Part shown: positions 2,778 to 6,169 of the stretch, piece by piece
Layout of the letters: each line of letters starts with the position of its first letter
Numbering within the stretch: position 1 is the stretch's first letter
Virus record (IMG/VR): IMGVR_UViG_3300000553_000326
Span: 3,455 to 24,560 of that record
Reading direction: 5' to 3' (one strand)
Source of the DNA: a virus
DNA length: 21,106 nucleotides
Notes under the pieces: generated by a model
Seen by the model: only the letters and a program-made list of their open reading frames with translations
Database searches by the model: none
What the model was told of the DNA's origin: nothing
Made by a program: the position numbers and the translations under genes

Positions 2778-3560
2778 CTACCACCACCTGAGCTGCTCGT
2801 TGCCCTTCTCCCTGAGGTCTCGGAGGAGGGCCATGAGCTTCACTGGCTCCATATTGGCCGGGCCTTGATTCATGCAGCCTGACGGATAGTGGCCACCGTG
2901 CCAGATCTCATTAGCCAGCGGCAGGTGCTCGTCGTAAATGTGTGCTGATACTGCCGTGTGATAAAGGGCCCCGGCCTCGGCCTCCACTGAATATTCTCGC
3001 AGAAGACCTGCCACGAGGTGCCCCACCATGCTGAAGTTGAAGACATCGTAGGGGAACCCCAGCCAGAAATCGTTGGACCTCATGAAGGCGTGGACATCCA
3101 GGACCCCACCACGCAGCTGGAACCACAAGGCCACCGTGCAAGGGATATCCTTGCTCGGCTGCGGGTTGGGGGTCCAGATGGTGAGCCCCGCCTGGCGGCT
3201 CATCGGATCCTTGACGAGGGTCTCTACCACGTAGTCGAGCTGGGCGGCAATGCGTGGCCCGTAGGCCCCGGCGAAGCTCTCACCGTCGTCGCTGAATTTT
3301 AGTAGTTGACTGTTGTAGGGCACAACGCCTTCCACCGAGTCATCCCCCGACAGGATCCAGTAGGCCTCAGCGGCCATGAACCGATAGTTGAGCTTCCGCT
3401 CCTGAATGGTCAGGACTGGACGGTGCATGTCCACGATCGACGTCAGGTGGGGCAACTCCGTGGTGCCCATACCCCGCGGGGCCACCCGTTGGCCGCGGTA
3501 GAGAAGCATGCCCAGGGCCCGAAGCCAAGCATCATTGGCCGATTGTGCAGTGAGATTCAC
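2778..3560 (-). CDS. Thymidylate-synthase-family enzyme with dCMP-type active site (dCMP hydroxymethylase or methylase)
   Basis: 260 residues. TS landmarks are in order: Glu65 and Trp68 (AEAYWIL), GAYGPR (98-103), SRQAGLTIW, the catalytic Cys141 in DIPCT, RSNDFWLGFPYD (161-172) and HIY (207-209). The Asn that TS uses to recognise dUMP (E. coli N177) is Asp172 here. This is the change known from T4 gp42 dCMP hydroxymethylase and from engineered TS that accepts dCMP. The enzyme should therefore transfer a one-carbon unit from methylene-tetrahydrofolate to C5 of dCMP; whether the product is hydroxymethyl or methyl cannot be read from sequence. The GTG start overlaps the upstream stop (GTGA) and follows AAGGAG by five bases. 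It is the last gene of a four-gene nucleotide module. Confidence 0.85.
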   Translation of the reverse strand: MNLTAQSANDAWLRALGMLLYRGQRVAPRGMGTTELPHLTSIVDMHRPVLTIQERKLNYRFMAAEAYWILSGDDSVEGVVPYNSQLLKFSDDGESFAGAYGPRIAAQLDYVVETLVKDPMSRQAGLTIWTPNPQPSKDIPCTVALWFQLRGGVLDVHAFMRSNDFWLGFPYDVFNFSMVGHLVAGLLREYSVEAEAGALYHTAVSAHIYDEHLPLANEIWHGGHYPSGCMNQGPANMEPVKLMALLRDLREKGNEQLRWW

Positions 3561-4471
3561 AGGAGCTCCTTGATGACTTCAGTGAGGCGGTAGGGCTCAT
3601 TGGCGTGGAAGCGTTTCCAGAATTGAGGATGCTCGACCATGACATCGTCGAGACCCAACTGCTGGAGGGTCTGGTGGGCCTTCTGCCCCAGCGCAATGAC
3701 CCGCTGATGCGGCTGGAAGGTAGAATGCTTATTGAGTTGGTCGGCGTTGACCCACATCAGCTCCTGCTCGCTGATGTCGGCCTCCAAAAGCTGCTGCGTA
3801 ACCCACTGGCTGCATCCGCCGTTGCTGAAGCTAGCGAAAGGCCACTGATAGTAGGCATCATTTGGTTTGTGCTGGGCGAATGATTCACCCACCAACACGA
3901 CCTTGGCCTCGAGGTTACCAGCGGACCTCACCAGGGCGGGGTGAAGTGGGGTCCTGAGCTGTGGCAGAAGGGTGGAGTGCTCCAATCGGACGTCCTGGTA
4001 GGTGTAGTTGTGGAGATAGACCGGCAGGTCCGTTAGCCCGTGCGCCGCGTAGCGTCGGTAGACAGCTCGTAGTTGGGCCTCGTCAGTGAGCATCTCAGCC
4101 GCCCGCCGCTTGTTGAAGTTAGCCACAGCCACCTCTTCACCAGGCAGACACATCACAACCACGGCCCCGCAGCGCATGGCGAGACGGTCTAGCATCCGGG
4201 CCGTGGGTCTCCCGAACCTGAGACTGCCCCCACGGAAGACCTCACCGTACGGTTGCTCAGACAGCCAGCAGCGGTCAAGAACAACGTCCTGGTAACCCAG
4301 GAGCGCGGGTAGCAGGGCCTCCACGTAGCAGCGGGCAAGACCTGGCCCGATGGCTGGCAAATTGCTGAAGTGGATGTAGGCCGCCCTTGTGTGGTGGGCA
4401 AACTCTCGAGCAGCAGTTGTTTTACCCCCGCCGTCCGGGCCCTCAAAGATTGTGACTGTCCTAGACGTCAT
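3557..4471 (-). CDS. P-loop nucleotide kinase fused to a uracil-DNA-glycosylase-like domain
   Basis: 304 residues. The N-terminal half is a thymidylate-kinase-type P-loop domain: Walker A GPDGGGKT at 11-18, DRCWLSE at 66-72 (the DR-x-W/Y-x-S/A signature) and an Arg-rich lid near 121-140. It probably phosphorylates a deoxynucleoside monophosphate, perhaps the modified dCMP made by the next gene. Residues ~189-304 resemble the UDG superfamily: VVLVGES near 191-197, a PF-S-x-G-x-S-x-W stretch, VIALGQKA at 258-265 and HPQFW at 281-285. The acidic residue of classical UDG motif 1 is not evident, so base excision is doubtful. ATG 4471 is preferred because Walker A then falls at the usual distance; it overlaps the MazG-like gene by 11 bases. 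Confidence 0.75.
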   Translation of the reverse strand: MTSRTVTIFEGPDGGGKTTAAREFAHHTRAAYIHFSNLPAIGPGLARCYVEALLPALLGYQDVVLDRCWLSEQPYGEVFRGGSLRFGRPTARMLDRLAMRCGAVVVMCLPGEEVAVANFNKRRAAEMLTDEAQLRAVYRRYAAHGLTDLPVYLHNYTYQDVRLEHSTLLPQLRTPLHPALVRSAGNLEAKVVLVGESFAQHKPNDAYYQWPFASFSNGGCSQWVTQQLLEADISEQELMWVNADQLNKHSTFQPHQRVIALGQKAHQTLQQLGLDDVMVEHPQFWKRFHANEPYRLTEVIKELL

Positions 4472-4967
4472 CACGGCACAGCCCCTCAAGTACTTGGTCG
4501 TGGGCATTGGTAAACAGGAGGCGGTTATACTGGTGCTCATACAAAATCATGAGGGTCATAGGTGGCACCCACCCCATGGGCTTGATCAGGTCGACCCTGT
4601 GTCCGCGCTTGCCGACCCCGGGGATCTTGTCCATGTTGGCTCCATGGACGTCGGACCAGAGCTCCTCCCAGGGCAGGCCCAGCATGATGGCGGTCCCCTT
4701 GGCAAAGTAGACGAGGTCAATCAGGGCATCGGCCTGGGCAGCGAGGTCTTGGAGCTCAACCCCCTCCCTGAACTCATCGAGCTCTTCCTGCATGCACTCC
4801 AACCGCTCGAATAGCTTCCGACGGGTGAGGTGGGCGGGAAAGGGTGGTCGAGTGAGGTGACCAAATCGCGCCAAGAACTGCTCGACGTCGAGGGTCTCCT
4901 GGTCGACGTAGGTGGGGCCACCTGGGTCCCTGAAGAACACGCTCTTAAACCACGACTTGAGACTCAT
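4461..4967 (-). CDS. MazG/PRA-PH-like all-alpha NTP pyrophosphohydrolase
   Basis: 168 residues. The metal-binding pattern of the all-alpha NTP pyrophosphatases is present: EELDEF at 61-66 and QADALIDLVYF at 78-88, then a helix ending VHGANMDKI. The family cleaves (d)NTPs to NMP and pyrophosphate. Next to a dCMP-type TS homologue the likely substrate is dCTP, which would remove unmodified dCTP and feed dCMP to the modifying enzyme, as T4 gp56 dCTPase does; the substrate is inference. The C-terminal ~45 residues (PMGWVPPMTLMILYEHQYNR) extend beyond the core. ATG 4967 overlaps the methyltransferase stop (ATGA) and has GGAGGG four bases upstream, better than a start at 4988. Confidence 0.82.
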   Translation of the reverse strand: MSLKSWFKSVFFRDPGGPTYVDQETLDVEQFLARFGHLTRPPFPAHLTRRKLFERLECMQEELDEFREGVELQDLAAQADALIDLVYFAKGTAIMLGLPWEELWSDVHGANMDKIPGVGKRGHRVDLIKPMGWVPPMTLMILYEHQYNRLLFTNAHDQVLEGLCRDDV

Positions 4968-5707
4968 TTGACCCTCCGGCAAACCCACAGGTTGTTGCGG
5001 GCCTGGTCAGGGAATAGTGGGCCGAAGATGTTCGAGATGGCGTCACTGTCGAAATACTCCTCGAGCATTGCCGCCACCTGGCCCACCGCCTTGTCCGGGT
5101 GCTTCTTGATGTGCTTGATGTCCATGAAGGTGCCGAACCGCCGCTCCACCACGAAGCCAGCCTTTTCAGCCGCCTTCTGAAGCTCGGGGACGGTGTACTC
5201 GTGGATGTGGTTGGCAGCGTGGCGCTTCCCGTCGTAGCAGGGGGTCGACATCAGCATGACACCGCCGACCTTCAGGCTGTCGAAACAGGCCTTGAGCAGC
5301 TTGGCTCCGAGCTCCACACGCATGTGCTCGATGACCTCGTAGTGGACCACGACGTCGAACCTTTCAGGCTTGGCCTTGAGCAGCTCCTTGTAGCGCTCCA
5401 CGAAGTTGAACTCGCCATGGAAGGTGAGTCGCTGGGACGCCGAGGGCTTCAGCTTGTTCAGGTCCACACCCACGTAGGTGTTGACGTGGGCCGCAGCCCC
5501 ACCAGTCAGGATCTTGCTGAGGGGCCGGTCCTCACCGCAACCAATCTCGAGCACGTCGTGGTTGGGCTTGACGAAGCGACGGGCGAAGGACCAGCGAAAA
5601 AAGTGGGCGGAGTAGTCCCTGGCAAGGGTTCTACCATGTCCAGCCTCCCTGAGCTGTGTCTGATCATAGTCACGGTCATCACGGTGTTTCTCTTTACGCT
5701 GGACCAT
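4964..5707 (-). CDS. Class I SAM-dependent methyltransferase
   Basis: 247 residues. SAM-binding motif I is DVLEIGCGED (51-60), followed by an acidic loop (YVGVDLN, 78-84), an aspartate-bearing strand FDVVVHYEVIEHM and a post-strand loop GGVMLMSTPC. The last two look like small-molecule or methyltransferase_11/23-type enzymes. There is no NPPY/DPPY or PC catalytic motif of DNA N6-adenine or C5-cytosine methyltransferases, so direct DNA base methylation is not indicated. Its stop overlaps the MazG-like start, so it is co-translated with the nucleotide module and could act on a modified nucleotide or on a modified base in DNA; this is inference. The ATG follows AGGAGG by five bases and directly abuts the upstream stop. 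Confidence 0.82.
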   Translation of the reverse strand: MVQRKEKHRDDRDYDQTQLREAGHGRTLARDYSAHFFRWSFARRFVKPNHDVLEIGCGEDRPLSKILTGGAAAHVNTYVGVDLNKLKPSASQRLTFHGEFNFVERYKELLKAKPERFDVVVHYEVIEHMRVELGAKLLKACFDSLKVGGVMLMSTPCYDGKRHAANHIHEYTVPELQKAAEKAGFVVERRFGTFMDIKHIKKHPDKAVGQVAAMLEEYFDSDAISNIFGPLFPDQARNNLWVCRRVK

Positions 5708-6169
5708 CTAGTCCTCCTGGGTGGGGTGTGTTCTGAGCGGTGTGAACAGAGCCCGGTCGATGGGCCAGTCACATTTGATTCGTTGTTGGAACTGATTGCT
5801 AGGCACTACGCACCTGGGATCTGCACCCCATTCTGCAGAGCACTTAGTCTCATCTTGAAAAGTCAGAAGAAGATTGTTGGATTTGTTCCAGCAGTTTACC
5901 TGTCGCGAAACAAACCGACAATTCGTCGGGCTGTAACCCTTGGTGTTGTCGATGCGATCGATGTCAAGGCCATACTTATAGCCATTGATAATTGCCCACT
6001 TCACAAAGTTAACACTACCGGAGCGCCCTGACCACTCTGAGCAGAGTGTGATGCCCTTCGCCCCGTAGTCCTTCCAAGATCTGTGCTTGGGCGAATTACA
6101 ACGGCCGTGGATCCCAGCCCAAACTGCTTGGAGCTTGAAGATGAGGTCCACGACCGCGTCGGAGGTCAT
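5708..6169 (-). CDS. HNH homing endonuclease-like protein
   Basis: 153 residues. The N-terminal part has the free-standing phage HNH pattern: a W-x-G-I-H-x-R-C opening, YGAKGITLCSEW, GLDIDRIDN (67-75) and GYSPTNCRFVS (78-88). The C-terminal ~45 residues (ETKCSAEWGAD...R-x-x-x-DWPIDRAL) look like the helix-turn-helix DNA-binding module often found after such nucleases. It would nick or cut DNA and spread itself between phages. The gene is visibly richer in A+T than its neighbours and fits without spare sequence between them: its ATG lies one base after the upstream stop and its stop abuts the methyltransferase ATG. It looks like a recent insertion into the operon. GGAGG lies nine bases before the ATG. 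Confidence 0.82.
   Translation of the reverse strand: MTSDAVVDLIFKLQAVWAGIHGRCNSPKHRSWKDYGAKGITLCSEWSGRSGSVNFVKWAIINGYKYGLDIDRIDNTKGYSPTNCRFVSRQVNCWNKSNNLLLTFQDETKCSAEWGADPRCVVPSNQFQQRIKCDWPIDRALFTPLRTHPTQED

Follow-up and report, generated by a model that had tools for sequence, protein, structure and literature searches.

What might a uracil-DNA glycosylase (UDG)-like domain do when it is joined to a nucleotide kinase? The question is raised by a gene in the window analyzed here, a stretch of 21,106 nucleotides from an IMG/VR virus contig of 24,560 bases (IMGVR_UViG_3300000553_000326), in which a thymidylate kinase-like domain continues into a UDG-like domain. To our knowledge, it has not been worked out how phages keep their modified-nucleotide pool clear of deaminated by-products, and the occurrence of this joined gene, conserved in dozens of phages that apparently make modified cytosine, suggests an undescribed checking step.

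One frame, two domains

The gene is a single open frame on the minus strand, running from 4471 to 3557 (304 codons plus stop), and the plus strand of the same interval is interrupted by stops. Upstream, it overlaps with the NTP pyrophosphohydrolase gene (4461-4988), and downstream it shares 4 nucleotides with the thymidylate synthase (TS)-like gene (2778-3560); the features are collected in Table 1. An in-frame ATG upstream, at 4540, would give an alternative protein of 327 residues, and relatives begin near the ATG chosen in the initial annotation. The landmarks listed there for a kinase/UDG-like fusion (Walker A GPDGGGKT, DRCWLSE, VVLVGES, ALGQKA, and HPQFW) are all present in the translation, and the fusion is real, being one frame with both halves identified by profile and by fold. 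The full-length AlphaFold model, with the kinase and the C-terminal domain together, reaches pLDDT 94.6 and pTM 0.93, and the identical protein occurs on two other IMG/VR contigs.

In the kinase half, the phrog_761 "thymidylate kinase" profile matches residues 5-162 (E 1.4e-13), and YorR of SPbeta (2axp/3kb2) is matched both with the family profile (E 1.1e-9) and at the top of the fold search. Within the Walker A region, Gly11, Gly16, Lys17, and Thr19 are invariant in 39 of 39 aligned rows. The score against the dTMP kinase equivalog TIGR00041 is 20.6 bits, below the cut-off of 83.25, and that against the Pfam thymidylate kinase family PF02223 is 15.6 bits, below the cut-off of 27. Judged by these profiles, the kinase half is a predicted kinase-like fold and not a canonical dTMP kinase. 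It resembles phrog_761/YorR kinases, whereas the stand-alone members of that group that were seen end after the kinase.

Table 1. Features of the fused gene and its operon neighbors (positions in the window)
Feature	Position	Strand	Basis
TS-superfamily gene, predicted dCMP 5-hydroxymethylase	2778..3560	minus	MilA match; Asp at cytosine/uracil-deciding site
Whole fused gene, kinase + UDG-like domain	3557..4471	minus	304 aa + stop
C-terminal UDG-like domain, residues 176-304	3557..3946	minus	fold matches; hhalign to UDG family 4
R287, equivalent of motif-2 Arg (UdgX R184)	3611..3613	minus	hhalign alignment
H281, equivalent of motif-2 catalytic His (UdgX H178)	3629..3631	minus	hhalign alignment
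N242, equivalent of uracil-binding motif-3 Asn (UdgX N91)	3746..3748	minus	PDB-profile + hhalign alignments
F212, equivalent of base-stacking Phe (UdgX F65)	3836..3838	minus	PDB-profile + hhalign alignments
E196, equivalent of family-4/UdgX motif-1 Glu (UdgX E52)	3884..3886	minus	PDB-profile + hhalign alignments
Thymidylate kinase-like P-loop kinase domain, residues 1-172	3956..4471	minus	phrog_761 + YorR/TMPK fold matches
Walker A GPDGGGKT, residues 11-18	4418..4441	minus	sequence
NTP pyrophosphohydrolase (PRA-PH/MazG-like), putative dCTPase	4461..4988	minus	PF01503 E 1.8e-11; phrog_671
Class I SAM methyltransferase, same operon	4964..5707	minus	PF13489 E 4.8e-13
HNH endonuclease-like gene	5708-6169	minus	phrog_3377, E 4e-37; directly upstream of methyltransferase

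Conservation of the fusion and its exceptions

Two genes joined here by chance had been named at the outset as one circumstance that would undo the initial reading. This is ruled out for the family, in which the fusion is conserved across 42 distinct sequences from the viral scan, the AXL3, PW916, and ctUtU524 records, and three genome-collection contigs. Scanning viral contigs for the family yielded 46 loci, and 38 of the 45 parsed are full-length fusions; L002, which duplicates L001, was excluded, and the 38 full-length members together with AXL3 make up the 39 aligned rows. A scan of viral contigs with a C-terminal pattern gave 29 loci, in 27 of which a single frame spans kinase and C-terminal domain. 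Of the other two, L071 retains just the tail of a kinase in front of the domain and L073 has the domain by itself; both frames run off a contig end. In the scan of genome contigs, all three matches are fused. No free-standing C-terminal gene was found in the viral- and genome-contig scans, the possible exception being a 152-residue BFVD model (A0A8D4KHD5), which ranks first among the viral structures matched to the C-terminal domain (E 9e-9, 29% identity) and could be a stand-alone copy of the domain or a fragment. Two Ghunavirus matches antisense to annotated genes were taken as chance, as was the match at L146. The kinase sequence on the Lentisphaera MAG contig DYMC01000001.1 (L087) is identical to that on viral contig L018, and the former is therefore probably a phage contig.

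The C-terminal domain is under purifying selection, with dN/dS of 0.03-0.16 in all seven chosen close pairs (some with common members) and similar values for the kinase part (0.03-0.14). Across 595 pairs, sequence identity in one half correlates with that in the other (r 0.70), as expected if the kinase and the C-terminal domain travel together. In actinophage DSL-LC01, a very different kinase (8.5 bits with the kinase profile) carries the C-terminal domain (28.6 bits with the C-terminal profile), which retains GD, PF, VN, HP, and R; this gene adjoins an Asp-type hydroxymethylase and a dCMP deaminase.

The domain is missing from 10 of 55 related kinases, several of which lie beside the same type of hydroxymethylase. 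The kinase tree has long branches and is poorly resolved on the question of whether kinase-only members represent losses or outgroups. L047, L048, and L049 encode kinases (44-49% identical) that end at ~206 residues without a UDG-like domain, and they have the NTP pyrophosphohydrolase, Asp-type hydroxymethylase, and deaminase in the same order as the fused loci. When kinase-only operons were searched under relaxed settings for a UDG-like gene of their own, the DNA polymerase of PMBT14 (L106:2816-5320; NC_048687.1 30815-33319) was the sole credible case. This phage has a hydroxymethylase operon with a kinase without the C-terminal domain, and its polymerase bears an N-terminal UDG domain (residues 22-156, Pfam E 3.7e-24) in which the stacking Phe and the motif-3 Asn are replaced. 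PMBT14 fits a rule by which the UDG module sits on one of two enzymes, kinase or polymerase, but the rule breaks down elsewhere: no Pfam UDG match was obtained in the remaining kinase-only records, although several have a polymerase, and the Gordonia Vine polymerase gave a marginal UDG match only.

The glycosylase fold and its pocket

Residues 176-304 modeled alone (alignment n = 34) gave an AlphaFold model with pLDDT 89.9 and pTM 0.84, and the first 37 PDB matches of this model in Foldseek are all UDG-superfamily entries (E from 7.4e-5). Against Thermus thermophilus UDG (1ui0), VIA-align superposes 121 of 129 residues (Z 10.3, rmsd 2.9). A profile-profile comparison by hhalign with 14 cellular family-4 UDGs, taken from 17 loci (L089-L105) chosen by a motif pattern that itself contains motif 1 and PF, gave E 2.2e-6 and P 89%. 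Pfam UDG matches 10 of 34 C-terminal domains (best E 2.1e-4); with the C-terminal domain as a single sequence, the match is weak (E 0.1), and a PDB profile search ranks family-4 UDG and UdgX first, each match individually weak (E 0.19 and above). The structure prediction and fold search proposed in the initial annotation thus give a predicted UDG fold, rather than the unrelated fold that would have refuted its reading, and chance similarity to UDG is ruled out by the fold search together with the profile-profile match; according to the model, the C-terminal half has the alpha/beta fold of the UDG superfamily.

The initial annotation had seen no evident catalytic acid in this domain. The family-4 acid position is, however, occupied by Glu196, and among 35 aligned members (the window sequence standing for its copies L001/L002, plus 34 loci, with the near-copies L015, L023, and L050 dropped), this position holds Glu in 17, Asp in 14, Gln in 2, Leu in 1, and Arg in 1. 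An acid is therefore found in 31 of 35, and the statement was wrong for a family-4 enzyme, even if this is the least constant of the five pocket positions. The other four are nearly invariant in the same alignment, with Phe212 and Arg287 each kept in 34 of 35 and Asn242 and His281 each in 33 of 35; mean conservation is 0.96 at these four against 0.55 at the remaining C-terminal positions. His281 is followed by Pro282, so that the HP of motif 2 is present. In UdgX, Phe65, Asn91, and His178 are essential, and E52A reduces activity (available text of PMC10776899), and the motif-2 Arg follows the His by six residues (H178/R184; available text of PMC10359453). With an acid in place and the three UDG motifs retaining their Phe, Asn, His, and Arg, the residues permit a catalytic role.

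The domain shares with family-4 UDG (UDGa; T. thermophilus 1ui0 and Thermotoga maritima TM0511) and UdgX the fold, the motif-1 acid, PF, the motif-3 Asn, HP, and the Arg, but it is ~60 residues shorter, fused to a kinase, and stripped of several family features. After the acid of the family-4 GE(A/G)PG motif, the subsequent A/G-P-G is lost; HPQ stands in place of HPS, whose Ser is absent. The set of four 4Fe-4S cysteines of UDG family 4 is absent from the 34 domains examined (the 35-sequence alignment with L051 additionally dropped), 15 of which have a single Cys, and in the hhalign alignment, the segment bearing two of the UDG4 cysteines is missing. The Lys three residues after the motif-3 Asn, which supports the Asn (available text of PMC10776899), is absent as well, with Gln245 in the window protein and Gln in most rows. 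Finally, the domain is acidic (median pI 5.93, -2.2 charges per 100 residues, n = 34), whereas most of the 14 cellular family-4 UDGs are basic (median pI 8.81, +2.0 charges per 100 residues).

This mixture of kept and lost features can be read in more than one way. It is possible, if somewhat doubtful, that the domain is a non-catalytic sensor of the modified base (hm-dCMP, hm-dCTP, or 5-hydroxymethylcytosine (hmC) in DNA) that gates or positions the kinase. The base-recognition module suggested in the initial annotation survives in this form as a live option. The drift of the acid position among Glu, Asp, Gln, Leu, and Arg while Phe, Asn, His, and Arg stay would suit such a sensor, as would the loss of the Fe-S cluster and the motif-3 Lys, and the pTM of the full model suggests two domains packed in a fixed manner. 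However, the kept motif-2 His and Arg, together with the acid in most members, exceed the needs of plain base stacking, and Asn at the site equivalent to Asn242 reads uracil in known UDGs, not cytosine.

A second and less probable reading, which we regard as unlikely, has the domain acting on DNA as a kinase-linked glycosylase that would remove U or hmU from phage DNA, or unmodified C (for example from host DNA) while sparing hmC. The complete family-4 pocket would allow this, and there are precedents nearby. UDG domains occur on phage DNA polymerases, as in PMBT14 and, in the available text of PMC7412058, in PaBG relatives; this group (with phiLo 9qhs by fold) resembles the present protein in having a UDG module on a DNA- or nucleotide-handling enzyme, there a polymerase I with the module at its N terminus, here a kinase. 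Brig1, likewise a UDG4-like fold connected with modified cytosine, excises glucosyl-hmC, for which it has a pocket of the Y121/E147 type, from DNA but is a bacterial defense enzyme that acts on phage DNA (available text of PMC11078745). Against a DNA-acting glycosylase stand the acidic character of the domain, its short length relative to UDG4, and the loss of the Fe-S part. The Asn in place of Asp also speaks against a cytosine target, by comparison with UNG N204D.

Predicted cytosine hydroxymethylation and a possible role for the second site

The operon company of the gene supports the proposal in the initial annotation of a base-modification operon. The best PDB match of the TS-like neighbor is the CMP 5-hydroxymethylase MilA (E 1.4e-21). 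Its catalytic Cys and an Asp (not Asn) at the deciding site are both present in 56 of 56 aligned rows, a count taken from the MAFFT column with repeats of the same contigs removed; it calls for caution in the most divergent rows and is least certain for L011 and L012. In a first pass by regular expression, several rows (including L010, L011, L012, L022, L025, L036, L039, L040, and L055) were without the motif or mismatched. A Ser stands where ribose-preferring MilA has Ala. Asp versus Asn is the rule for cytosine versus uracil and Ala/Ser that for ribose preference (available text of PMC5175136). The Asp-type hydroxymethylase points to an operon chemistry of cytosine hydroxymethylation rather than thymine chemistry, as far as sequence can tell. 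The hydroxymethylase gene lies next to the fused gene in 41 of the 42 distinct sequences, and the locus includes the NTP pyrophosphohydrolase in 38, a dCMP deaminase in 38, and the methyltransferase in 35, some of the missing neighbors falling at contig ends. Of 37 restriction enzymes tried on the DNA of the relative AXL3, two cut it, both at sites made up of A and T only, whereas enzymes with G/C in their sites did not; the authors of that study do not settle on a modification (available text of PMC7504290). Together with the operon, this restriction resistance points to 5-hydroxymethylcytosine or a derivative of it. A carbamoyl elaboration of hmC finds no counterpart by PF02543, which matches 0 of 36 records (kinase-only records included). 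We know of no role for a SAM methyltransferase in hmC metabolism; the one encoded here possibly adds a further modification of the base. The HNH gene may have entered the operon as a mobile element, and none is annotated at the equivalent place in AXL3.

Constant operon company is also what might be expected of a docking module that links the kinase to the enzymes of a dNTP-making complex, such as T4 has, or to the replisome, its pocket being a relic. We consider this quite improbable, since a relic would not be expected to show pocket residues that, the acid apart, rank among the best conserved in the domain, as they do even in the highly divergent DSL-LC01 protein.

The predicted steps and the Asp-type hydroxymethylase resemble the T4-type hmC pathway, in which gp56 is the dCTPase, gp42 the hydroxymethylase, and gp1 the kinase, with a dCMP deaminase alongside; here, on the other hand, a TMPK/YorR-like kinase bears a UDG-like domain, and the operon includes a methyltransferase. 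By analogy, the NTP pyrophosphohydrolase would convert dCTP to dCMP, the TS-like enzyme would convert dCMP to 5-hydroxymethyl-dCMP, and the kinase half would phosphorylate hm-dCMP to hm-dCDP. Our leading explanation, held tentatively and short of an even chance, is that the gene encodes the hm-dCMP kinase of a phage hmC pathway with a built-in module for checking pyrimidines at the nucleotide level. The C-terminal half would be a minimal UDG domain that has kept the family-4 base pocket and lost the Fe-S cluster and positive charge, and it would most likely act on mononucleotides, not on DNA. Deaminated counterparts of the uracil type, hm-dUMP and dUMP, would be bound by its conserved Phe, Asn, and His and either hydrolyzed at the base-sugar bond or sequestered, and so kept from phosphorylation and entry into DNA. 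With a uracil-type pocket, the DNA-acting features lost, and attachment to a kinase that commits monophosphates, quality control of the nucleotide pool is the simplest reading. The data are compatible with hydrolysis and with binding at the C-terminal pocket alike; the more specific proposal, in which the kinase commits hm-dCMP while the UDG-derived site of the same protein destroys hm-dUMP (or dUMP) by glycosidic hydrolysis, is doubtful on present evidence. A Pfam UDG search of 45 records, kinase-only ones included, turned up no further gene of the UDG family in those of the fused phages.

Several observations weigh against such a checking module. Its acid is Asp in 14 of 35 members and lost in 4 of 35, which is unusual for an active family-4 enzyme, and the Lys that would support the Asn is replaced by Gln245. 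Acidic net charge, moreover, is no proof that DNA binding is absent. Because kinases without the domain occur beside the hydroxymethylase, the pathway can run without it. ThyX is found in 13 of 36 records (again including kinase-only ones), and since AXL3 and others make thymidylate from dUMP, destruction of dUMP would be costly and hm-dUMP is the safer guess for the ligand. Likewise, no dCMP deaminase was found in a 38-kb record carrying the identical protein (among 38 records checked, kinase-only ones included), and the deaminase is thus not a universal source of the proposed substrate.

If the second site acts on nucleotides, the UDG superfamily would extend from DNA repair to nucleotide metabolism, with a member working on free monophosphates and guarding a modified-base pool. 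The accessible open-access literature, including the AXL3, PW916, and MetaGPA papers, gave no description of a kinase-UDG pairing, most subscription journals lying outside this scope. The cultured phages AXL3 and PW916 offer a protein that is compact, well conserved, and expressible, and whose two active sites can be tested. The kinase-UDG gene is unannotated in two public records (L004:2319-3299, OL960029.1; L005:7977-8912, MW202621.1), and the hydroxymethylase is annotated as thymidylate synthase in the AXL3 record. For AXL3, our analyses suggest corrected names, dCMP hydroxymethylase for the "thymidylate synthase" and hm-dCMP kinase for the "thymidylate kinase", in keeping with the unexplained restriction resistance of this phage.
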